Assembly: GCA_028284885.1 (NCBI GenBank)
Contig: JANQQW010000169.1
Span: 1-37,655 of the forward strand
From: Planctomycetaceae bacterium
GTDB taxonomy: Bacteria > Planctomycetota > Planctomycetia > Planctomycetales > Planctomycetaceae
DNA length: 37,655 nucleotides
Direction: 5' to 3'
Below are positions 1,741-31,450 of the stretch, one piece after another. Numbering within the stretch: position 1 is the stretch's first letter; each line of letters starts with the position of its first letter. Below the pieces are notes generated by a model. The model did not search any database. It saw only the letters and a program-made list of their open reading frames with translations, and was not told the DNA's origin. The position numbers were made by a program, and so were the translations under genes.

Positions 1741-3303
1741 ATGGCACTCTACGCATTTGACGGCACCTGGAACGATTCGAGTTCGCCGGGCCGGGACACA
1801 AGCAAGGACACGAACGTGCATCGCTTCCGTGCCCTCTACGAGGGCAACACCTTCTACCTGGACGGTGTCGGAACGCGCTGGGGGATCGTTGGACGACTCA
1901 TCGGAGGGGCGACAGGTGCCGGTGCTTCGAAGCGCGTCCACGAACAGTTCGCGAATCTGCAGCAAGCGTTCAAGTCTGGCGACGAAGTCGTTGACGTGGT
2001 CGGATACAGTCGAGGAGCCACGATCGCACGTCTGTTCGTGCAGCATGTCGAAGAGGCCTTCGACCTGATCGAGCGAGGAGACGGAACTCGACTGCAGGCG
2101 CCGCCGGCAGTGCGATTCCTGGGTCTATTCGACACGGTCGCCTCATTCGGCATTCCGTGGACCGACGACGACGGGTTCCGCAAGGAGATTCCCGACTTCG
2201 TTGAGAGTACCTTCCACGCTATGGCCCTCGACGAAACTCGGGAGACGTTCGGGATCGAACGGTGCCTCGGGAATCGCGCGAGAATCACCGAGGTCTGGTT
2301 CCGGGGAGGACACGGCGACATCGGCGGCAACGGCACGTACGACGATCGGGACAACGAAGAAAAGGCCAACCTGACTCGATCATTCATCGCGCTGAACTGG
2401 ATGGTGGCCAAGGCCAGGGCCTGCAACCTGCCCGTCGGTGAATCGACGAGCCTGCCCGATGCAGTTCCCGAGAACGCGGAAGCCGTGGTGACAACCCGCG
2501 AGGGGAGGATCAGCTTCGGGAACGCTGGAACACTCTCACGGCGCATTCATGTCGGTGACCTCGTACATCACACCGTCGAGCAGACGACACTGACTCACGG
2601 AATGGATGGCCGACTGCTGAGGCGGATCAGCGTGCCAACGAGGATCGAAGACAAGGTTCTGGAGCATGATGCCGAGGGGCTGAACTGGGCTCCGGAGCCA
2701 GGAGTCAGCGCCGGACCCGACAACATAGTGACTGCGGACTCGTACCCCTCTCTGCAGAACCTGAGCACCCGCCGCTATCCATTCGACGTCCTGCCCGCCC
2801 GGACCTGGCGTGCGTGGCTCGAGATCTGGGGATTGGACCAGCTCGACGAACCGGTCATCGAGGACGAACGGCTCGCCGAGTTCTGGTCGCCTTCGGCAGC
2901 AGACCGTGCCCTTGCCTGGGACGTCTACGTCGAACTGATGACCCGGATCACCGTTCAACGACTGAAGGACGATGAGGGGAACAGCAAGACTGCACTGGAG
3001 AGCGTGTACCAGTTGTTCCCGCTCTCCCGCGATGGCATGAAGAGGCACGGCGTCACTTGTGCCAACGCGGCGACGCTGATCACGATCTTTCTGAACACGC
3101 GAATCCGCTGGTTCACCGCCAAGTGGCATCCGCTCGCGGAATTGATCGACGAAGCCTCGGAGAAGTGTGATTCCGCTAAGTGCAGCGATTTCCGCACTGA
3201 GTTGAAGGACAGGATTCAGCCCACACTAAGCCTGCTGGCCGACGCACTCTCTGTCCTCTCCGACGCGAAGCTCTCCTCGACGGACATCGATGGCACAGCG
3301 TAG
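1741..3303 (+). CDS. DUF2235 (Tle1-like) alpha/beta-hydrolase protein
   Basis: A 520-residue protein of the DUF2235 family (T6SS phospholipase effector Tle1-like domain). The N terminus has the family opening FDGTWN, then GVGT (42-45). GYSRG (88-92) supplies the nucleophile elbow with Ser90, FLGLFDTV (126-133) supplies Asp131, and VWFRGGHGDIGG (185-196) supplies His191, so a complete Ser-Asp-His set is visible. Known members hydrolyse phospholipids as type VI effectors; others are of unknown role. No signal peptide is seen. The C-terminal half (about 290-520) is helical and unrecognised. No T6SS gene (VgrG, Hcp, PAAR) is in the window. It sits in an accessory region with two recombinases and upstream of a membrane-anchored LP-repeat protein on the same strand, which may be its partner (inference). 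G+C is lower than in the flanking core genes. Start chosen at the ATG with AGAGGG upstream. Confidence 0.85.
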   Translation: MALYAFDGTWNDSSSPGRDTSKDTNVHRFRALYEGNTFYLDGVGTRWGIVGRLIGGATGAGASKRVHEQFANLQQAFKSGDEVVDVVGYSRGATIARLFVQHVEEAFDLIERGDGTRLQAPPAVRFLGLFDTVASFGIPWTDDDGFRKEIPDFVESTFHAMALDETRETFGIERCLGNRARITEVWFRGGHGDIGGNGTYDDRDNEEKANLTRSFIALNWMVAKARACNLPVGESTSLPDAVPENAEAVVTTREGRISFGNAGTLSRRIHVGDLVHHTVEQTTLTHGMDGRLLRRISVPTRIEDKVLEHDAEGLNWAPEPGVSAGPDNIVTADSYPSLQNLSTRRYPFDVLPARTWRAWLEIWGLDQLDEPVIEDERLAEFWSPSAADRALAWDVYVELMTRITVQRLKDDEGNSKTALESVYQLFPLSRDGMKRHGVTCANAATLITIFLNTRIRWFTAKWHPLAELIDEASEKCDSAKCSDFRTELKDRIQPTLSLLADALSVLSDAKLSSTDIDGTA

Positions 3304-20479: not shown

Positions 20480-23377
20480 TCAGTCGAACCGGAGTTCGAC
20501 GTCCGCGATCTCGTACGGCGTGACGTTGACGATCACCGCGTCGTCCTGGATCGGCAGTGTGCCGATGGTCCGGCCCTCGAAGTCCCGTTGCCGTGCGTAG
20601 CTCGGCGTTCGGAACAGCCGGAGCTTCACCTCGCGACGTCGCCCCTCGGTCTCGACGAGCCGAACTGCGAAGCCGTTGCCGGCTGGCACCTCGTCGCGGG
20701 TTCCCTCGTCGTCCGGTCGGACGGCGACGGGGTCCGGATCCAGCAGCGGCAGGACCGCGGTGAGCTGCACGTTCTTCGCCGAGAGGTGGAAGAACCAGCC
20801 GGTCGCCCCGGAGTTCGGCCGGCCGCCGTTCGTCGGGAGGACGACCGGCGGGACGAGCGCGTCGAGCGCCGCCTGCATGGGGTACGGGTCGTCCACGGTG
20901 ATCGCGAAACGGAAGTGCCGCTGCTCCTCCCCCTCGACGACCATCAGCGAGTCGATCATGCGGTCGCCCGACTTGCGGTGGAAAGGCAGGCCGAACGGGA
21001 CGATCGTGGTGCGCTCGTCGCCCGTGTTGGCGATCTCGACGAAGTGCAGGCTCTCGATCCGCTCCCCGCTGGAGAGGTGGGCCTGACCGAGGACCGAGCG
21101 GCCGACGGCGGCCGTCGTCTCGTTCCACGCGAACCGCGAGGCGACGTACTCGTTCCACGGGCTCCCCTCGGGCATCCGCTTCACGTCGAGCACGACGGCG
21201 ACGTCGAGCGTCCGCCGTCCCCGCCACAGGCGGAACCGCTGCGAGAACCGTGCGAGCACGCTGCCGTCGGACGGGTCGAGCAGGTTGCCCCGCGTGACGA
21301 CCTCGGCGAAGGCCGGGCCGGTCGAGGTGACGTCGGTCCCCGTGCACTCCATCGACGAGTAGAACGTCCGGGTGGGCTCGCCCCCTCCCTCCGGGGCGGG
21401 GATCGTCTTCTCGTGGGCGAACCGCATGGCGAGCTGCTGGCTGAGCCGGTTCGGCTTCCGCCCGAACTCCTTGATCGTGTGGATGCCTCCGGTCGTCGGG
21501 CTGACGTGCACCTCGAAGAACTCGTTCCGCATCACGAGTTCCTCCTCGTCGACGAGGCTCTCGTGCTCCCCGTCCGGTCCCGACGTCGACTCGCCGACCG
21601 GGAACCAGGCGAACCCGCAGGCGGGCACCTCCACGAGAGCGGCCAGGCTGTCGCCGTCCTTCTGGGCGACCTTCACCGGTCCGGCGAGATCGACCGCCTC
21701 GACCGCGGGCAGATCACAGGCGACGCGGCGCTGGAAGGAGAGCGGGTTGAAGACGAGTCGCCCGGGCGGGGCGTCGCCCGGGGTCAGAACGAGTTCGGCG
21801 AGTTGTCCGGCGGAGGACTGCATCCAGCCGTACACGCTCGCGTCGAGGTCGGCCGGGGCGGCGTCGTTCGGATCGGGGCCGCCGGACTCCACGGCCTCGG
21901 ACCACTCCGTTTGCAAGTCGGTCTGCGGCGGGCGGCCGAGTAGTGCCGCGGCCGTGTTCCGCAGCCAAGAGCCGGCCTCGTGGTACGTGCGGCGAGTCAG
22001 ATGCGATGCATATCGGCCGAGCGGCGAGGACTCCTTCCGGGCGACGGCCTGTACCAAGAACGGTGACAGGTACTCGCTCTCGCGGTAGGTCGAGAGCCGG
22101 CCGGGCATCTCCGTTCGCTCGGAGAAGGTCTCGAAGGTGACGAACTCGCCGAGGACCGGGGCGTACTTCGACATGCGGACGAGGTCGTCGAGCCACGGGG
22201 TCTTCACCTCCGGCCAGCGGGCGAAGACGACGGCCGCCACCTGGTCCATGTCCATCGCCTCCGCCATTCTCTGCGAGAAGCGGAGGAAGCTGACGGCCGA
22301 GTCGCCGGCGAGCGGGATGCGGGAGACGGCGTCGACCACGGAGCCGTCGCACCCTTCCCACCGCTCCTTGCTCCCCTCGGCGTCCGGGTAGAAGCCGTCG
22401 TCGAGGATGACGTGCAGGGCGGTGTGGTAGCCGGACCGGGTGAGAATCTGCGGGAGCAGCGTACTGAGGCCGAAGCGTCGCCGTCCCCACGTTCGCGGCG
22501 GCTTGCCGAACCGTTCGCGGAAGACCGCCCGGCCACTCTCGAACTCGTGCAGCAGCGAGCCGAGCGGCAGCAGCGTGGTGGGCCGTTCCCGGTACTCCCC
22601 GCCGACGACGTCGAGCGTTCCCCGCTCGTGGGCGGCCCGGACCGCCTCGAGTGCCTCGGCGGACTCGCGGGCGATCTCGTCGAGGTCGGTCCCGCAGACG
22701 AGCAGGTTCTTCGGCTGGTCCGTTCCGGCCGTCCGCACGAGGTGGTCGTCGGCCAGTTCGGGAATCAGGAGGCAGAGGTCGAGCAGGTAGCAGTCGACCG
22801 GGTAGAACCGCTCGCGGGCCTCGTGGAGCGCCTCGAAGCAGCGGCGGAGGTGGGCGCGAGTCGCCTCGGCGTCGCCGGCGACCGCGGACTCGGCGGCCGC
22901 AATCCCCTCCCGCTGCAGCTGGGCGTCGTCGAGGTTGCTGAAGTGGTGCATGTGCCGCGTGAGCAACTCGATCTGCAGCCAGCAGCTGCCCAGGGCGTGG
23001 AAGTCGGCGACGAGTTCGGCATCGACCTCCGGCACGTCCTGCAGGCCGGACAACGCTTTCGCGACCACGTCGGCACGTTCTTCGACGCTGCGGACGACCG
23101 TGGCCCCCTCGCTCTCGGCACGCGTTGCCCAGCCGCCCGGCAGCCACTCCTCCGCAGGTTCGGGAACGAAGACGACGCGGGTGCCGATGTCGCTCGGCGG
23201 CTCGTCGGCCCGTTCCCAGGTGGGAATCGACTTCTTCGCGGCGACCAAGGCGGGATGCCAGGCGGCGGCGAAGGCGTTCAGCAGGCTGCTGGCCGGGCCC
23301 TCCCCCAGTTCCGTGGGGAAGTCCTCCAAGCCGTGGCTGGGGATCAGGACGACGATGTCCTCGCGGCTCTCCGACAC
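20480..23377 (-). CDS. Large GH38-like (alpha-mannosidase-related) protein lacking the expected catalytic Asp
   Basis: A 965-residue protein, started at GTG 23377 with GAGGGA just upstream. No signal peptide is seen. The layout follows glycoside hydrolase family 38: an N-terminal alpha/beta region opening VVLIPSHGLEDFP, a helical middle, and from about 560 a beta-rich C-terminal region (PPGRLVFNPLSFQRRV, NEFFEVHVSPTTGGIHTI, RFSQRFRLWRG). The stretch GRAVFRERFGKPPRTW then GRRRFGLSTLLPQIL aligns with the GH38 'fG...W.pDtFG.s..lPqil' block, but the nucleophile Asp is replaced by Arg. The HxD metal motif also appears as HGLED. It may thus be a non-catalytic relative or use another mechanism. Gene is alone on its strand; function unknown. 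Confidence 0.6.
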   Translation of the reverse strand: MSESREDIVVLIPSHGLEDFPTELGEGPASSLLNAFAAAWHPALVAAKKSIPTWERADEPPSDIGTRVVFVPEPAEEWLPGGWATRAESEGATVVRSVEERADVVAKALSGLQDVPEVDAELVADFHALGSCWLQIELLTRHMHHFSNLDDAQLQREGIAAAESAVAGDAEATRAHLRRCFEALHEARERFYPVDCYLLDLCLLIPELADDHLVRTAGTDQPKNLLVCGTDLDEIARESAEALEAVRAAHERGTLDVVGGEYRERPTTLLPLGSLLHEFESGRAVFRERFGKPPRTWGRRRFGLSTLLPQILTRSGYHTALHVILDDGFYPDAEGSKERWEGCDGSVVDAVSRIPLAGDSAVSFLRFSQRMAEAMDMDQVAAVVFARWPEVKTPWLDDLVRMSKYAPVLGEFVTFETFSERTEMPGRLSTYRESEYLSPFLVQAVARKESSPLGRYASHLTRRTYHEAGSWLRNTAAALLGRPPQTDLQTEWSEAVESGGPDPNDAAPADLDASVYGWMQSSAGQLAELVLTPGDAPPGRLVFNPLSFQRRVACDLPAVEAVDLAGPVKVAQKDGDSLAALVEVPACGFAWFPVGESTSGPDGEHESLVDEEELVMRNEFFEVHVSPTTGGIHTIKEFGRKPNRLSQQLAMRFAHEKTIPAPEGGGEPTRTFYSSMECTGTDVTSTGPAFAEVVTRGNLLDPSDGSVLARFSQRFRLWRGRRTLDVAVVLDVKRMPEGSPWNEYVASRFAWNETTAAVGRSVLGQAHLSSGERIESLHFVEIANTGDERTTIVPFGLPFHRKSGDRMIDSLMVVEGEEQRHFRFAITVDDPYPMQAALDALVPPVVLPTNGGRPNSGATGWFFHLSAKNVQLTAVLPLLDPDPVAVRPDDEGTRDEVPAGNGFAVRLVETEGRRREVKLRLFRTPSYARQRDFEGRTIGTLPIQDDAVIVNVTPYEIADVELRFD

Positions 23378-23889: not shown

Positions 23890-26091
23890 ATGCCGGAATC
23901 CCGTGGTGTCTGGGGAATCGAGATCGGCCAAGCCGGTCTGAAGGCCATTCGGCTGCGGTACGCCGAGGCTGCCAAGCAGGTGATCGCGGTCGCGTTCGAC
24001 TACGTCCCGCACCCCAAGATTCTGAGCCAGCCGGACGCCATTCCGGAGGAACTGGTCCCCAAGGCCCTCGAGACGTTCCTGTCCCGGAACTCGATCGCGG
24101 GCGACAAGGTCTGCATCGGCGTCCCCGGTCAGTCGGCCCTCACACGGTTCATCCAGTTGCCGCCGGTCGAGTCGAACCGCGTCGCGGAAATCGTGAAGTA
24201 CGAGGCGCGGCAGCAGATCCCATTCGACCTCGAGGACGTGATCTGGGACTACCAACGCGTCGGCGGCGGCATGGAGGAGAGCGGGTTCCTGCTCGAGGCC
24301 GAGGTCGGCCTGTTCGCCATGAAGAAGGAACAGGTCCACGCGGCCCTGCAGCCGTTCGTCGACCAGAAGGTCGAAGTGGACGTGATCCAGGTCGCGCCGC
24401 TCGCCCTGTACAACATGCTCTCGTACGACCAGCTCGGCATCCGCATCGAGGAGGAAGGGCAGATTCCCGACGGCGAGGACGAGCACACCATCGTCGTCGA
24501 CATGGGAGCCGACAACTCCACGCTGCTCGTCTCCAACGGCGAGAAGATCTGGATTCGCAACGTCCCGGTGGGGGGCAACCACTTCACCCGGGCCCTCACC
24601 AAGGAGATGAAGCTCACCTTCGCCAAGGCCGAGCACCTCAAGTGCAACGCTACCAAGGCCCCGGATCCGCGAGCCGTCTTCCAGGCGCTCCGCCCGGTCT
24701 TCAACGACTACGTCTCCGAGATCCAGCGGTCGATCGGCTACTTCTCCAGCGTCAACCGCGAGGCGTCGATCAAGCGGGTCCTCGGCGTCGGCAACGGCTT
24801 CAAGCTGGCCGGCCTGCAGAAGTTCCTGCAGCAGAACCTGCAGTACGAGGTCGAGCGGATCGACACGTTCAAGGGGCTCGTGGGGGACAACGTCCTGGGC
24901 GACCCGGTCTTCCAGGAGAACGTGCTCGGCTTCGCCGTGCCGTACGGGATGGCCCTCCAGGCACTCGGCGTGACGCCGATCCACACGTCGCTGCTCCCGC
25001 CGGAGATCACCCGCGCCCGAGCCATCCGCAAGAAGAAGCCGTGGGCCGTGGCGACGGCGGCCACACTGCTGTTCGGACTGGCCACGTCGGTGGCGGTCGG
25101 CGCAGGGGCGCTGATGAGCGTCGAGAACGAGGACTGGGAGAAGGCGAAGAAGGCCGCTCTCGACCTGAAGGGAGCCGTCGACGCGGACCGGACGGCCTAC
25201 AACAAGGCGACCGAGGAGAGCAAGCAGATCGACCAGAAGATCGGTCGGCTCGTCGAGCCGTTCGAGGACCGGTTCAAGTGGCCGGAACTCTACAAGGCCG
25301 TCTACGACTGCATGCCCCACACGCCACCCGGCGTGGTGGAGGAGCAGGGGGTCGAGAAGCTGTCCGAGCAGGAGCGGATGAAGCTCGTCTCGCTGCGGGC
25401 GGTCGAGGTTCCGGACCTCGCCAAGTGGTGGGACGCCCGTGTGAACGACCCGCAGAGCAGCACGCTGGGCAAGGCCCCCGCCGACATCGCCAACCCGCCG
25501 TCCGGCCCCGGCTACGTCGTGGAGCTGAAGGGCCAGCACTACCACCACGTGCCGGAGAAGCAGAACGACGTCGGCGTGCAGTACGTCATCACCAGGCTGC
25601 TGGCCAACCTGCACCAGTGGGAGGTCAAGAACCCGAACACCAACCTGATGACGCCCGTCCGCGACGCCGGCATCAGCCACGCCTTCGTGGTCTCCTTCGT
25701 CACGCCGCAGGAAGTGCGGATCCTGAAGAACCAGGACGAGGGAGGTGACGTCGCCGCCCGGGCTCGGGCGGCCGTCGCCGCAGAGGCCGCCAACCGGGAC
25801 ACGCTCGAGGACGAGCTGTACGTCACACTGCGTGAGACGTCCTTCGTCGTCGAGTTCGCCTGGCAGCCGTTCACCCGGACCGAGCGTCTGAAGTTCACCG
25901 CCCTGCGGCCGTTGTTCGCCCAGAGCCAGAACGCGGCCGCCGTCACGCTGCCCGAGGCCCAGGCCGTGCTGACGAACTCCACGAACCTCGAGGTTCGCGG
26001 TCTGGGCCTGACGACCGAGGAACTCGAACGATTCAAGGCGTGGTACGCCGCCGGGCAGGTGCCCGCGACCCCGACCGGAACCACCAACTAG
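23890..26091 (+). CDS. pilM: PilM-type ATPase fused to a membrane segment and large extracytoplasmic region
   Basis: A 733-residue protein. Residues 1-375 are a PilM/FtsA-like actin-fold domain: WGIEIGQAGLKAIRLR (8-23), GVPGQSALTRFIQLP, IVKYEARQQIPFDLEDV (a PilM hallmark), HTIVVDMGADNSTLLV and KRVLGVGNGFKLAGL. Normal PilM ends near 350 residues and is cytoplasmic. Here it continues through KKKPWAVATAATLLFG into a transmembrane helix (about 384-405), then 330 residues that begin with a coiled coil (EDWEKAKKAALDLKGAV). That order matches PilM followed by PilN, so the gene is probably a PilM-PilN fusion extended at the C terminus. PilM binds ATP and links the pilus motor to the inner-membrane PilN-PilO-PilP complex. 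First gene of a three-gene operon behind a good promoter; the next gene starts 30 bases on. Confidence 0.8.
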   Translation: MPESRGVWGIEIGQAGLKAIRLRYAEAAKQVIAVAFDYVPHPKILSQPDAIPEELVPKALETFLSRNSIAGDKVCIGVPGQSALTRFIQLPPVESNRVAEIVKYEARQQIPFDLEDVIWDYQRVGGGMEESGFLLEAEVGLFAMKKEQVHAALQPFVDQKVEVDVIQVAPLALYNMLSYDQLGIRIEEEGQIPDGEDEHTIVVDMGADNSTLLVSNGEKIWIRNVPVGGNHFTRALTKEMKLTFAKAEHLKCNATKAPDPRAVFQALRPVFNDYVSEIQRSIGYFSSVNREASIKRVLGVGNGFKLAGLQKFLQQNLQYEVERIDTFKGLVGDNVLGDPVFQENVLGFAVPYGMALQALGVTPIHTSLLPPEITRARAIRKKKPWAVATAATLLFGLATSVAVGAGALMSVENEDWEKAKKAALDLKGAVDADRTAYNKATEESKQIDQKIGRLVEPFEDRFKWPELYKAVYDCMPHTPPGVVEEQGVEKLSEQERMKLVSLRAVEVPDLAKWWDARVNDPQSSTLGKAPADIANPPSGPGYVVELKGQHYHHVPEKQNDVGVQYVITRLLANLHQWEVKNPNTNLMTPVRDAGISHAFVVSFVTPQEVRILKNQDEGGDVAARARAAVAAEAANRDTLEDELYVTLRETSFVVEFAWQPFTRTERLKFTALRPLFAQSQNAAAVTLPEAQAVLTNSTNLEVRGLGLTTEELERFKAWYAAGQVPATPTGTTN

Positions 26092-26121
26092 GACGTCCCC
26101 GAGGACGACGGAGAACTCGAC

Positions 26122-27801
26122 ATGGAGAAGCTGCAGGCGTTGCTCGTCCACCGCTTCTGGTTGCTGTTCGGTGCCGTGCTGCTCGTCCCCATCGTCGGAT
26201 GGTGGATCGCCAGCGGCAGCCTCTCCTCGAAGACGGCCGCGGCGACCGACGACATCAAGGCCGCCAAGAACGCCCTGCCCGCGGGCGTCGGACTGCCCAA
26301 CTCGAAGTACGTCGAGGGGGCCGAGGGCGTCACCAAGCAGAAGCAGGCGCTCTACGACCAGGAGTTCCAGCGGCTGTGGGACCGCCAGAAGGCACTGATG
26401 ACCTGGCCGGTCGGCATGGAGTCGATGAGCCGGTACGACTTCGAGGCGTCGATCAGCGACGCGGACCGGCTCCAGTACCAACTCCGCTACAACGACGAGG
26501 TCGAGCGGATTCGCGAACTGCTTCCCGAGTACGACCCCCAGACCGAGCAGGGAATCGTGCTGCTCGAGGGGGCGACCCTGCCGTTCGTCGACACGAACCA
26601 GGCTTGGCGTGGCCGGTCGCCCTCGTCTCAACAGGCTTGGGACGCCCAGATGGACAACTGGTTCACGGAGGCGATCTTCAAGGCGATCCGTTCGGTCAAC
26701 GGGACCGTGGAGGGGACCGAGCAGACGATCCGCGACGCAGCCGTCCGCCAGATCACAACCCTGATCTACAAGGGGGGAAGCCGGGGCGGTGACACGGCCG
26801 TGGCGGCGGATCCCGCGAACATGGAGGGGCAACCCGAAGGGGGCCTCGTGCCGGGCGGCGTCAACGCGGCGTTCGACCTGTTCGGTAGCACGACCGGCGG
26901 CGGCGGCGGGCGGAACGAGTCGTTCGGCGGCAGCGGCGGCGGCAACAACGTCGCCAGCCCGTCGAACATCGACGTCGATCCGGCGAAGATCTTCGGCGAC
27001 GCCCGCATCCAGTCGACCACCGACGGCACGCTCTCGGAAGGCAACCAACCGGCCGGCCCCCTCGGAGCATTCGGCGGCAACACCCAGCAGAACGCGGCCG
27101 AACGTCGCTACATCGACGACGACGAGACGCTCCCCTACCGGACCCGCGGCTTCTACCTGCACGTCGTCGTCCGGAACGACGCTGTCCCGGACCTGCTGCT
27201 CGCCTTGTCCAACATGGACTGGCCGACGACAATCGTGCACGTGCACGTGGCCGAGGCCCATCCCGCACGGCTGGAACGTGCCAACGCGGGCGGGGCGTTC
27301 GAGGGTGGCGGAGGCGGCGGCGGCTTCGAACGGCCCGGCGTCGGTGGCTTCCCCCCTCGTGCCGGTCTGGGCGGTCTCGGCGGCGTCCGTCCCCGTCCGG
27401 GCGGAGAAGGAAGCGGCGGGACGTCGGGTGGTCTGCACACCTCCGCGCTCGGGCCGGGCAACGGTCTGGCGCAAGTCGTGATCGCCGGCGTGATGACGAT
27501 CTACAACGAGCCGAAGAAGGAAGAGAACGCCGAGTCGACGGAGTCGTCCGATCCCGGCACGCCAGAGTCGGCCGAGTCCTCCGAGACGACCGAGCCCGAT
27601 GACGAGACGCCCGCGAACGATCCCGACGCGGATCCGGCCGAAACGGACACAACCGACCGTGCCGACGCCACGACACCGGTCGGCACGCCGGCCGACGAAG
27701 CCGATTCCGATCCTGCTGACGCGGGATCGTCGGGAACCGAACCGGCCGACGCGACGTCCAATTCCAGTACCGAAGCCGAGCCGACGGACGGCGGTCGCTG
27801 A
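26122..27801 (+). CDS. Single-pass membrane protein, probable PilO-like partner, with Gly-rich and acidic regions
   Basis: A 559-residue protein with a transmembrane helix at 13-31 (WLLFGAVLLVPIVGWWIAS) after a short basic N terminus. Residues 40-230 are mainly helical (coiled-coil-like). Then come two glycine-rich segments (about 254-276 and 392-433) around a small alpha/beta domain, TRGFYLHVVVRNDAVPDLL followed by NMDWPTTIVHVHVAE (near 341-378), of the ferredoxin-like type found in PilO. The last ~100 residues are low complexity, dominated by Glu, Asp, Ser, Thr and Ala. Placement after the PilM fusion and this domain suggest the PilO role in the inner-membrane pilus platform (inference). 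Unlike PilO (about 200 residues) it is much enlarged. Confidence 0.6.
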   Translation: MEKLQALLVHRFWLLFGAVLLVPIVGWWIASGSLSSKTAAATDDIKAAKNALPAGVGLPNSKYVEGAEGVTKQKQALYDQEFQRLWDRQKALMTWPVGMESMSRYDFEASISDADRLQYQLRYNDEVERIRELLPEYDPQTEQGIVLLEGATLPFVDTNQAWRGRSPSSQQAWDAQMDNWFTEAIFKAIRSVNGTVEGTEQTIRDAAVRQITTLIYKGGSRGGDTAVAADPANMEGQPEGGLVPGGVNAAFDLFGSTTGGGGGRNESFGGSGGGNNVASPSNIDVDPAKIFGDARIQSTTDGTLSEGNQPAGPLGAFGGNTQQNAAERRYIDDDETLPYRTRGFYLHVVVRNDAVPDLLLALSNMDWPTTIVHVHVAEAHPARLERANAGGAFEGGGGGGGFERPGVGGFPPRAGLGGLGGVRPRPGGEGSGGTSGGLHTSALGPGNGLAQVVIAGVMTIYNEPKKEENAESTESSDPGTPESAESSETTEPDDETPANDPDADPAETDTTDRADATTPVGTPADEADSDPADAGSSGTEPADATSNSSTEAEPTDGGR

Positions 27802-27867
27802 GCGACCGTTCCCGAGCGACAACCCCTCTGACCAACGTTGCGGGCAACCCACGCACCGGAGTCGAAC

Positions 27868-30048
27868 ATGAAGAACCTGCTCAGCTCACTCAAGTCGCTG
27901 GACTTCAAGGAGTTCGCCATCCGGCACGGTGAGAAGGTCGCGCTCAGCGTGGTCGGGTTGATCGTGCTGCTCACGCTCGCGTTGGGAACGCAGTGGAGCC
28001 GGTACAACGAGATCGCCCCGGACGAGTTGAGCGAGAAGGCCGCGACGACGGGACAACAAGTCCGGACGTCCGGTTGGCCCGAGACCGAGAAGCTGGCTCT
28101 GGAGGCCTCCACGACGGGACCGGCCCACCCGCAACGCCGCGTGGCCAGCATGCTGGCGGACCAGAACCTCGACGACCCGCGGTTCGACTTCACCATGGGC
28201 CCCGTCATCTGGGAGCCGTTGCCGCGTAGCGTGCCGATCCGCGAGCCGAAGTGGTACCAGCTGATCGAGCCGATCGCGTCGCACGGCCGGATCATTCTCG
28301 ACATTCCGCAACTCGTGGCGGCCGAGGATCCGATGGGGGTCGCCGTCGGCGACGGAGTCGACACCCGGCGCGACGAGGGCGCAATTGTCGCGAGGAAACG
28401 GACGCAGTTCGACCCGCGGCAGGGCGGCGTCGGCGCGGGCGGCGGTGAGAGCTTCGATCCGGGGGCTGGACTGGGCATGCGTCTGCAGGGGTTCGCCCCG
28501 CCCGGATTTGAGTCGCCCGAGGGTCAGCCCGGCGGCTTCGGCGAGTTCGACGGCGAGGTCTCCGGGCCGAGTTCCGGACTGGCGACCCACTTCGTCTCGG
28601 TTCGGATGGTCTTCCCGGCCCGGGCCCAGCTCCAGGCGATTCTGAACGCTCGCGGCATCGGAGCCGTGGCGTCGGCCGACTTGTTCTCGATCCAGGACTT
28701 CGAGATCGAGCGGTCCCAGGCGATCGCAGGCCCCGACGGCGAGATCGAGTGGACGGAGTGGAAGTCGTTCGACCTCGACAAGACGCTCGAACTGCTGGAC
28801 CTCGTGTCCGGCTTCGACACCGAGACCCTGCATCCGCAGGTGATCGACCAGACGATCACGATGCCGCTGCCGATGCCGAAGTACGGGTATTGGCAGGACG
28901 TGCACCACCCGCGTCTCAAGGACGCCGTGCTCAGTGCCGAGCAGCAGCAGCAGTTCGGGCAGTTCGCGGAGGCGATGGCTCAGACCCGCGAACAGTTCAA
29001 CGAGGCCCCCGGGTTCGAGTTCGGGGCCGGCGAGGCGGCCGGCGAGAACGCCGACGTCGAGAAGGGGGGCTGGGCACCGAAGATTCGCGACTTCAAGTCC
29101 GAGGTCTCCGAGGTGGCGGCCGACCAAGAGCGAGCCCGCGCGACTTTCGACGTCATGCGGACGCAGGGGGGGGTCGGCGCTCTCAACCTGCAGACCCTGT
29201 CGGCCACCGGCGAGTACCTGCTGTTCCGGTTCGTCGACTTCGACGTGGAACCCGGTCGGGCCTACCGTTACCGAGCCCGACTGAAGTTCCTCAACCCGAA
29301 CTACGACCTCCCGATCGACCGGGTGCTGCGTCCCAGCGTGGCGGAGGGGCTGTTCCGCCCCAATCCGCTGAACGACCAGGAGATGGAAGCGGCTTGGTCC
29401 GCGTCCACGAACCCGGTCGTCGTTCCGGACGACTTGGAGTACTACGTCGCCGGCGTCACCCGGTCCCTCCGGTCGTCCGAGGCGAACGCCAAGATCCGCG
29501 TCCACGTCTGGAGCGACGTCCTCGGTACGTGGGTCTCCGAAGTGGTCGAGGTCGCTCCTGGTGAGCGTGTCGGCGGCTCCGGACCGGAGAACACCGACGT
29601 GGCCAACCTCGTCGCGGACACCTTCGAGAAGGGGCAGCCGGTCCGGTTCGAGGCCGACGACGTGCTGGCCGACCTCGTCGCCACCCCGGTGCTCGACCTG
29701 AACGACGGCATGCACGCACAGTACCTCGCCGGGCTGGGCGAACCGCGACTCGAAGTGGTCGCACCGGTCGTCGTGCTGAACGAGTACGGTGAGTTGGTCG
29801 AGCACGACCCCGGGGCCAAGTCCGACGCCCGCGACGCGGCTCGCACGCGGTACGAGGACCAGATGACGGCCCTCGAGACGTTGCTCGCACCGCAGGCCGA
29901 CACCGAGGGACTCGGCGGCAACCCGCTGGAGTCCGGCGAGGGCTTCACCGACTTCTACGGCGAGGGGGGCGAAGGAGCCGTCGCGCCTCAGCCGCGGAAG
30001 CGTCGACGAGTCAAGAAGGGGAATCCGCTGCGGATCGGCGGGAACTGA
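27868..30048 (+). CDS. Large single-pass membrane protein of the pilM-type operon, unknown fold
   Basis: A 726-residue protein from the ATG at 27868 (a TTG at 27838 is unlikely). Its transmembrane helix is at 23-40 (KVALSVVGLIVLLTLALG). The long extracytoplasmic part includes a proline/glycine-rich stretch (about 180-230) and a beta-rich domain beginning near 440 with EYLLFRFVDFDVEPGRAYRY and RARLKFLNPNYDLP. The C terminus is strongly basic (RKRRRVKKG). No family is recognised. Operon position suggests a PilP-like or platform role, but the size and lack of a lipobox argue for a planctomycete-specific component. Its stop overlaps the convergent folC gene by 38 bases. Confidence 0.6.
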   Translation: MKNLLSSLKSLDFKEFAIRHGEKVALSVVGLIVLLTLALGTQWSRYNEIAPDELSEKAATTGQQVRTSGWPETEKLALEASTTGPAHPQRRVASMLADQNLDDPRFDFTMGPVIWEPLPRSVPIREPKWYQLIEPIASHGRIILDIPQLVAAEDPMGVAVGDGVDTRRDEGAIVARKRTQFDPRQGGVGAGGGESFDPGAGLGMRLQGFAPPGFESPEGQPGGFGEFDGEVSGPSSGLATHFVSVRMVFPARAQLQAILNARGIGAVASADLFSIQDFEIERSQAIAGPDGEIEWTEWKSFDLDKTLELLDLVSGFDTETLHPQVIDQTITMPLPMPKYGYWQDVHHPRLKDAVLSAEQQQQFGQFAEAMAQTREQFNEAPGFEFGAGEAAGENADVEKGGWAPKIRDFKSEVSEVAADQERARATFDVMRTQGGVGALNLQTLSATGEYLLFRFVDFDVEPGRAYRYRARLKFLNPNYDLPIDRVLRPSVAEGLFRPNPLNDQEMEAAWSASTNPVVVPDDLEYYVAGVTRSLRSSEANAKIRVHVWSDVLGTWVSEVVEVAPGERVGGSGPENTDVANLVADTFEKGQPVRFEADDVLADLVATPVLDLNDGMHAQYLAGLGEPRLEVVAPVVVLNEYGELVEHDPGAKSDARDAARTRYEDQMTALETLLAPQADTEGLGGNPLESGEGFTDFYGEGGEGAVAPQPRKRRRVKKGNPLRIGGN

Positions 30049-31450
30049 TCGCGACGGAGGCCTCGGAGCGACCGCTCGGTCCACCGGCCGAGAGCATCCG
30101 TCGGCACTCGGCCGCCAGGAAGAAGGAACCGGTGACGCACACGAGACCCGCGTCGCCGGCTTTGCACGTCGCTGCCGCGAGGGCCTCCGCCGGCGTCTCC
30201 GCGCACTCGAACGACTGATGCCCGGCCGGACCGAGTGCCGAGAGCGACGATGCCAGTTCCGTCGGGGTCACCGCGCGCGGGTTCTCGACGAACCGGGTGA
30301 GCACGACGTGGTCGAACCGACCGACCACCTCCGCCAGCATCGCCGCGTGGTCCTTGTCCGTCGAGGAGGCGAAGACGAGGACTCGCGGCCCGGGAGCTGG
30401 GAAGTCGCGTACCGTGCTGACGACTGCCGCGACCGAGGCCTCGTTGTGTGCCGCGTCGCACACGATCGCCGGACGTTCGCCGACGATCTCGAACCGCAGC
30501 GGCCACTCGAGCCGCTCGATGCCGCGGACCGACCGTTCCGGATCGACGGCCACGACCCCGTTGGTCCGAACGAGTTCCAGAGCCCCCACAGCGAGCGCAG
30601 CGTTCGTCACTTGGTGTCGACCGTCCAGCGGCAGGCCGAGAGCAGGCCACTCCGCGGTCGGCGTCGCGACCTGTATCCGTGGCCGCGAGGGCACGGGATC
30701 CGGCACGTCGCCAATGACCGTCACGCCGACGTCCCGGTCGAGTTCCCACAGCGGGGCACCGTTGCGACGGCAGGTGTCTCGAACGACCTCGCTCGGCTCG
30801 TTGCCGCTCACACCCGTCACGCAGGGAACGCCCGGCTTCACGATGCCCGCCTTCTCACGAGCGATCGCCCCGAGCGTGTCCCCCAGCAGCCGTTCGTGGT
30901 CGCGGCTGACGTTCGTCACCACGGTCACGATCGGCCGGCAGACGTTGGTCGAGTCCAGCCGTCCGCCCATTCCCACCTCCATGACGGCGACCTCGACCTG
31001 CTGCTCCTCGAAGTGCATCCACGCGAGTGCCGTCAACGTCTCGAAGAAGGTCGGTCGGAGATCGAGCCCCTCCAGCAGGTCGGCGAGTCGGGCGACGACC
31101 GCAACGAACGCCTCCTCCGTCGCCTCCAGCCCGTCGACGCGTAACCGCTCCTCCACGCGGTCGACGTGTGGCGACGTGAACAGCCCGGTCCGAACGTCGG
31201 AGCCGACGAGACCGGCGGCGATCATCGCCGAGGTCGACCCCTTCCCCTTGGTGCCGGCGACGTGGACGGCGGGGATCCGGTCCTGCGGGTTCCCGAGCGC
31301 CGCGAGCAGACGACGAATCGTGTCGAGCTTGAAGGCGTCCGGGACCGGGGCGGGGCGGCGTTCGTAGTCGATTCGGTCCAGCAGGAAAGCACGCGCCTCG
31401 TCGGCCGTGCGAACCTTGCGTGGCGAGTGAGAGCGGGGAGTGGTCGTCAC
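30011..31450 (-). CDS. folC: Bifunctional folylpolyglutamate/dihydrofolate synthase
   Basis: A 479-residue Mur-ligase-fold enzyme. Started at GTG 31450. It shows the FolC P-loop HVAGTKGKGSTSAM (63-76), the TSPH motif (92-95), VMEVGMGGRLDSTN (the Mg and folate region), RDHERLLGDTLGAIAREKAGI and, in the C-terminal domain, CDAAHNEAS. It adds glutamate residues to folates, and in many bacteria also makes dihydrofolate from dihydropteroate. Length and motifs are normal. The last 13 codons lie opposite the end of the third gene of the pilM-type operon (convergent overlap). It is divergent from the comB-like gene with a 134-base gap. Confidence 0.94.
   Translation of the reverse strand: MTTTPRSHSPRKVRTADEARAFLLDRIDYERRPAPVPDAFKLDTIRRLLAALGNPQDRIPAVHVAGTKGKGSTSAMIAAGLVGSDVRTGLFTSPHVDRVEERLRVDGLEATEEAFVAVVARLADLLEGLDLRPTFFETLTALAWMHFEEQQVEVAVMEVGMGGRLDSTNVCRPIVTVVTNVSRDHERLLGDTLGAIAREKAGIVKPGVPCVTGVSGNEPSEVVRDTCRRNGAPLWELDRDVGVTVIGDVPDPVPSRPRIQVATPTAEWPALGLPLDGRHQVTNAALAVGALELVRTNGVVAVDPERSVRGIERLEWPLRFEIVGERPAIVCDAAHNEASVAAVVSTVRDFPAPGPRVLVFASSTDKDHAAMLAEVVGRFDHVVLTRFVENPRAVTPTELASSLSALGPAGHQSFECAETPAEALAAATCKAGDAGLVCVTGSFFLAAECRRMLSAGGPSGRSEASVAISSRRSAADSPS

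Follow-up and report, generated by a model that had tools for sequence, protein, structure and literature searches.

A PilM-fusion operon of the Planctomycetia as the probable inner half of an enlarged type IV pilus-like envelope machine

Which machine employs a PilM protein that continues through the membrane, when two large membrane proteins follow it and neither pilus motor nor secretin genes lie nearby? The question is raised by a three-gene operon in the window, meaning here the whole stretch of 37,655 nucleotides analyzed, from a Planctomycetaceae bacterium (assembly GCA_028284885.1, contig JANQQW010000169.1). A sequence-only reading had seen in these genes the PilMNOP alignment complex rebuilt with fused and enlarged parts, perhaps for a system special to the planctomycete envelope. 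We find that genes 1-3 probably encode those parts of a type IV pilus-like trans-envelope machine of the PVC superphylum that sit in the inner membrane and periplasm, its secretin being encoded elsewhere in the genome. The set would be a divergent and enlarged relative of the pilus-like cluster of the gut bacterium Akkermansia, with Amuc_1101 as counterpart of the PilM fusion, Amuc_1100 of the PilO-like protein and, by position, Amuc_1099 of gene 3; a secretin broadly like Amuc_1098 would also belong to it. The three open reading frames are as originally described: they lie on a single strand with intergenic gaps of 30 and 66 bases, genes 2 and 3 encoding single-pass proteins of 559 and 726 residues with one N-terminal helix each.

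Gene 1 (23890..26091, +; 733 aa) starts at an ATG with a GGAGGG motif about 7 bases 5' of it. Its actin-like PilM domain (residues 9-357; 23914..24960, +) is recognized by Pfam PilM_2 (1.6e-30, 106.7 bits for a cut-off of 27) and by TIGR01175 pilM, where it exceeds the cut-off of 133 (6.4e-47, 160.2 bits), and a profile search of the PDB retrieves PilM chains (3jc8, 2ych, 5eou). Hydropathy places one hydrophobic helix (residues ~385-411; 25042..25122, +) between this domain and a conserved outer part (residues 412-733; 25123..26088, +), in which W464, P476, G541, F652 and W658 stand out as conserved columns. The top NCBIfam match is Amuc_1101_fam (1e-61, 209.6 bits versus a cut-off of 650), and it covers residues 57-477, extending beyond the membrane helix. 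The proposed succession of PilM domain, helix and outer part is therefore borne out, but not the PilN-like character of the tail: gene 1 gives no match to Pfam PilN, whose hits across the phylum genomes never fall, by their listed coordinates, on fused-PilM loci. Upstream, a glycosyl hydrolase 38-like protein (20480-23377, -; Pfam 2.4e-6) is encoded divergently from gene 1, and 17 of 35 loci have a homologue next to the operon.

Gene 2 (26122..27801, +) escapes sequence comparison: searches of Pfam (PilO included), NCBIfam and the PDB, by sequence and by profile, gave nothing credible, and profile comparison of gene 1 or gene 3 against it gave no meaningful match. An AlphaFold2 model built from 54 sequences (mean pLDDT 69) nevertheless predicts an N-terminal helix (residues ~4-34), long helices and a beta, beta-alpha-beta, beta core, broken by glycine-rich inserts at ~224-322 and 390-445 where pLDDT falls below 50. 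For this model the best solved fold is that of Akkermansia Amuc_1100, matched by VIA-align in three crystal structures (6lad, 6kny, 6laf) over residues 64-466 (26311..27519, +) with Z 11.7-12.6; Pseudomonas PilO comes second at Z 7.9 and unrelated folds score around 5. Foldseek is suggestive at most (best E 0.0076). A sequence match to Amuc_1100 comes only through the distant orthologue at locus L219, whose gene 2 matches the NCBIfam Amuc_1100 family at 1.5e-4, below cut-off. Gene 2 is thus predicted to have an Amuc_1100/PilO-like fold. Within a conserved operon running from PilM to secretin, the Amuc_1100 fold would then be the PilO-like part and carry an N-terminal membrane helix.

Gene 3 (27868..30048, +; 726 aa from its ATG) is a single-pass protein, modeled as mostly beta (pLDDT 75) behind one membrane helix (~20-44). 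Sequence and profile searches of Pfam, NCBIfam and the PDB returned nothing credible, and no convincing fold relative was found among solved structures: fibronectin-III sandwiches come top with a Z of 7.1, which the tool itself rates as common. We do not retain a fibronectin-III assignment, given this Z and a Pfam fn3 match in one relative at E 0.11, below cut-off. Gene 3 occupies the place of Amuc_1099 or PilP by position, not by homology. The idea of a rebuilt PilMNOP complex therefore holds for the PilM domain and, as modeled, for the PilO-like fold, but the fold search lends no support to a PilP in gene 3. A FolC gene (30011-31450, -) converges on gene 3, the two listed reading frames overlapping by 38 bases.

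The gene order is strongly conserved. Gene 1 fusions were matched in 39 of 40 relatives' genomes, in single copy in nearly every relative. Over 115 loci (35 from the relatives' genomes and 80 Planctomycetaceae records, with genomes partly shared), gene 2 follows the PilM fusion wherever enough sequence is available (105/105) and gene 3 comes next in 84 of 85 testable loci, the sole exception being a short contig on which gene 2 is split into two open reading frames. Clustering of the reading frames over the 35 loci retained just genes 1-3 in nearly all of them. The sequence-only reading had proposed to check this order across planctomycetes, and would have fallen with a broken order or with unrelated folds in genes 2 and 3; the order is kept and gene 2 appears Amuc_1100/PilO-like. 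Across the phylum, the gene 1 profile at 1e-30 matches 226 of the 294 genomes drawn, an upper figure for the fusion at that threshold because the weaker matches include unfused, ordinary PilM proteins (371-390 aa) with Pfam PilO nearby (G052, G055, G090).

Where, then, is the secretin? Outside the class, it is found directly 3' of the operon on the same strand in 12 of 25 loci (L209, L210, L213, L215, L216, L217, L219 and L220-L224) and, within the class, a same-strand secretin stands behind gene 3 in G034, G025, G037 and G038. Two of the outside loci bridge the smaller and enlarged versions of the operon: window-family profiles still recognize genes 2 and 3 at L219 (1.1e-3 and 3.7e-6) and at L221 (7.9e-13 and 4.7e-4). 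The top family for the L215 secretin and for the first of two L219 secretins is Amuc_1098 (1e-34 and 5e-32, below cut-off); MshL or PilQ outscore Amuc_1098 for the other L219 secretin and the L220 one, and none reaches its cut-off. A profile built from 13 operon secretins matches all 40 relatives, including contig C319 of the source genome, which carries a giant secretin of at least 1784 residues (G000:C319:3-5354, -; L286) in a frame open to the contig end. About six tandem repeats, each of roughly 80 residues, lie in its N-terminal half, with long glycine-rich stretches close to the break, and it is probably the repeats that cut the contig short at this point. Since this giant secretin sits on C319, the source genome has lost the linkage and not the gene, and its homology together with the linkage in sister families makes it the candidate partner. 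The initial remark that neither motor nor secretin lies nearby is accurate for the window but does not extend to the genome, which encodes both elsewhere, the secretin being adjacent to the operon in sister families. A PilQ-like secretin on C103 was rejected as the conserved partner, as even weak matches to it occur in just 24 of 40 relatives. At L209 (5935-11680, -), PilM fusion, gene 2 and secretin occur with no gene 3 in between. At L222 (2261-8042, -), several prepilin-like genes come after the secretin, the clearest pilus link that we have seen.

What distinguishes the operon in the class Planctomycetia is size. When the class is compared with the 12 outside loci that have a linked secretin, median lengths are 768 versus 616 aa for the PilM fusion, 578 versus 309 aa for gene 2, 739 versus 351 aa for gene 3 and 1503 versus 896 aa for the secretin, values that are approximate because starts were assigned by program and contig ends truncate a few frames. 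The corresponding p-values (~1e-6) ignore shared ancestry, and the class may have undergone enlargement just once. The class-specific trait is that all four parts are enlarged; the machine itself is carried by most planctomycetes, and a smaller form of it occurs across the phylum. The suggestion of a system special to the planctomycete envelope is thus not upheld in kind, given the phylum-wide smaller form and the matches to Akkermansia families, but it survives as this enlargement. Large extensions and insertions probably enlarge a periplasmic cage, and the enlarged parts perhaps span a wide periplasm. Lengths of the four parts do not increase jointly among members of the class (gene 2 and secretin correlate negatively, rho -0.56), which speaks against a finely tuned length ruler.

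Among the closest known systems, the Amuc_1098-Amuc_1102 cluster of Akkermansia muciniphila comes with an Amuc_1101-family PilM-like fusion, an Amuc_1100-like fold, a further membrane protein and, as in relatives of the window, a TPR-bearing secretin; the synteny is known from papers and family names. The cluster products are abundant in the Akkermansia cell envelope (PMC5332112, PMC4960237). The window parts differ in scoring below the equivalog cut-offs, in being much larger with glycine-rich inserts, and in that the secretin is unlinked in the window's family. The type IVa PilMNOP/PilQ system shares the PilM domain, the PilO-like fold and, in relatives, the order PilM, PilO-like protein, one gene, secretin; however, the window PilM continues into a fused outer part, Pfam PilN and PilO give no match, and a conventional PilB-PilC-PilO cluster stands apart in the same genome. 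In established type IV pilus biology, PilM links the motor in the cytoplasm to a cage in the inner membrane that is aligned with the secretin. By analogy, the PilM domain here would form a cytoplasmic ring and connect to a motor of the PilB/PilT type, and a periplasmic cage built by the tail of gene 1 together with genes 2 and 3 would reach the N-terminal helical repeats of the secretin, which would itself act as exit pore for a filament or pseudopilin.

The genome encodes other machines as well. On C304 (G000:C304:82786-88891, +; L228), PilB-type and PilC-type genes accompany a Pfam-recognized PilO, behind which a 192-aa protein looks by eye like PilP/GspC, and C305 carries T2SSE, T2SSF and pseudopilin-like genes with a 1232-aa GspD (2e-100). 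Because this conventional PilB-PilC-PilO cluster is separate, and because the listed coordinates of Pfam PilN and PilO hits fall outside fused-PilM loci, the window set is an additional machine. A second PilM (G000:C20:11904-13028, +; L230 3904-5028) is unfused, 374 aa long, and has no evident PilN or PilO behind it.

A fused actin-like domain, helix and outer part is also the layout of GspL. The genes could accordingly be read as a type II secretion platform, gene 1 acting as GspL, gene 2 as GspM and gene 3 as GspC, with a GspD-like secretin exporting folded proteins. The shared layout of gene 1 and the secretin partner fit this reading, as do weak matches to T2SSL and GspL in one relative (3.7e-4 and 4.1e-5) and to GspM among gene 2 relatives (0.056). 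We nevertheless consider it unlikely: PilM models far outscore GspL, which is not listed for the window gene 1 up to E 0.1 and reaches 22.8 bits in one relative for a cut-off of 65; the gene 2 model is closest to Amuc_1100 and PilO; and the T2SS-like cluster on C305 is separate, with its own T2SSE, T2SSF and GspD. Alternatively, the PilM fusion and its partners might form a static envelope-spanning scaffold, anchoring the giant secretin as a pore or spacing column with no motor at all. Clustering of reading frames over the 35 loci revealed no motor gene linked to the operon within the class, and both the single copy kept in nearly every relative and the long helical repeats of the secretin would suit such a column. 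However, PilT is present in 291 of 294 phylum genomes, the source genome has PilB/PilC-type genes, and prepilin-like genes are linked at L222, making a motorless scaffold the least probable reading, and very improbable in itself.

If the operon does specify the inner half of a type IV pilus-like machine, as we favor, what would it handle? Planctomycetes have an enlarged periplasm and crateriform outer-membrane structures, and tubule- or fiber-like structures, likened to type IV pili, reach into the periplasm (PMC8303584, PMC11131199). Planctomycetales also have at least 41 prepilin-motif proteins per genome, most with an SBP_bac_10 domain (PMC8567305). Consistent with this expansion, SBP_bac_10 (PF07596) has at least 46 matches in the source genome and at least 47 in G034, nearly all full length, whereas each of 40 genomes sampled outside the class has no more than eight matches, and only partial ones. 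Because of these two coincidences, in envelope structures and in SBP_bac_10 expansion, we would guess that the substrate is surface fibers or the expanded SBP_bac_10 pseudopilins, bearing in mind that the correlations stand at the level of one class. A fuller scenario, in which an ancestral PVC complex was enlarged as a whole in Planctomycetia, with a giant secretin able to carry a helical-repeat array, so as to bridge the enlarged periplasm, and stands behind crateriform structures and fibers or SBP_bac_10 pseudopilin export, is tentative and on balance doubtful. The literature that we found on planctomycete envelope structures names no genes for them; the main texts of studies of essential genes in Planctopirus limnophila and Verrucomicrobium spinosum mention neither pili nor secretins, and no paper was found combining planctomycetes, GspD and PilQ. 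The operon and its secretin provide four named genes, conserved in most of the phylum, as a candidate for structures spanning the planctomycete envelope. Elsewhere in the window, a protein with a T6SS Tle1-like phospholipase domain is encoded at 1741-3303 (+; Pfam 1.9e-33).
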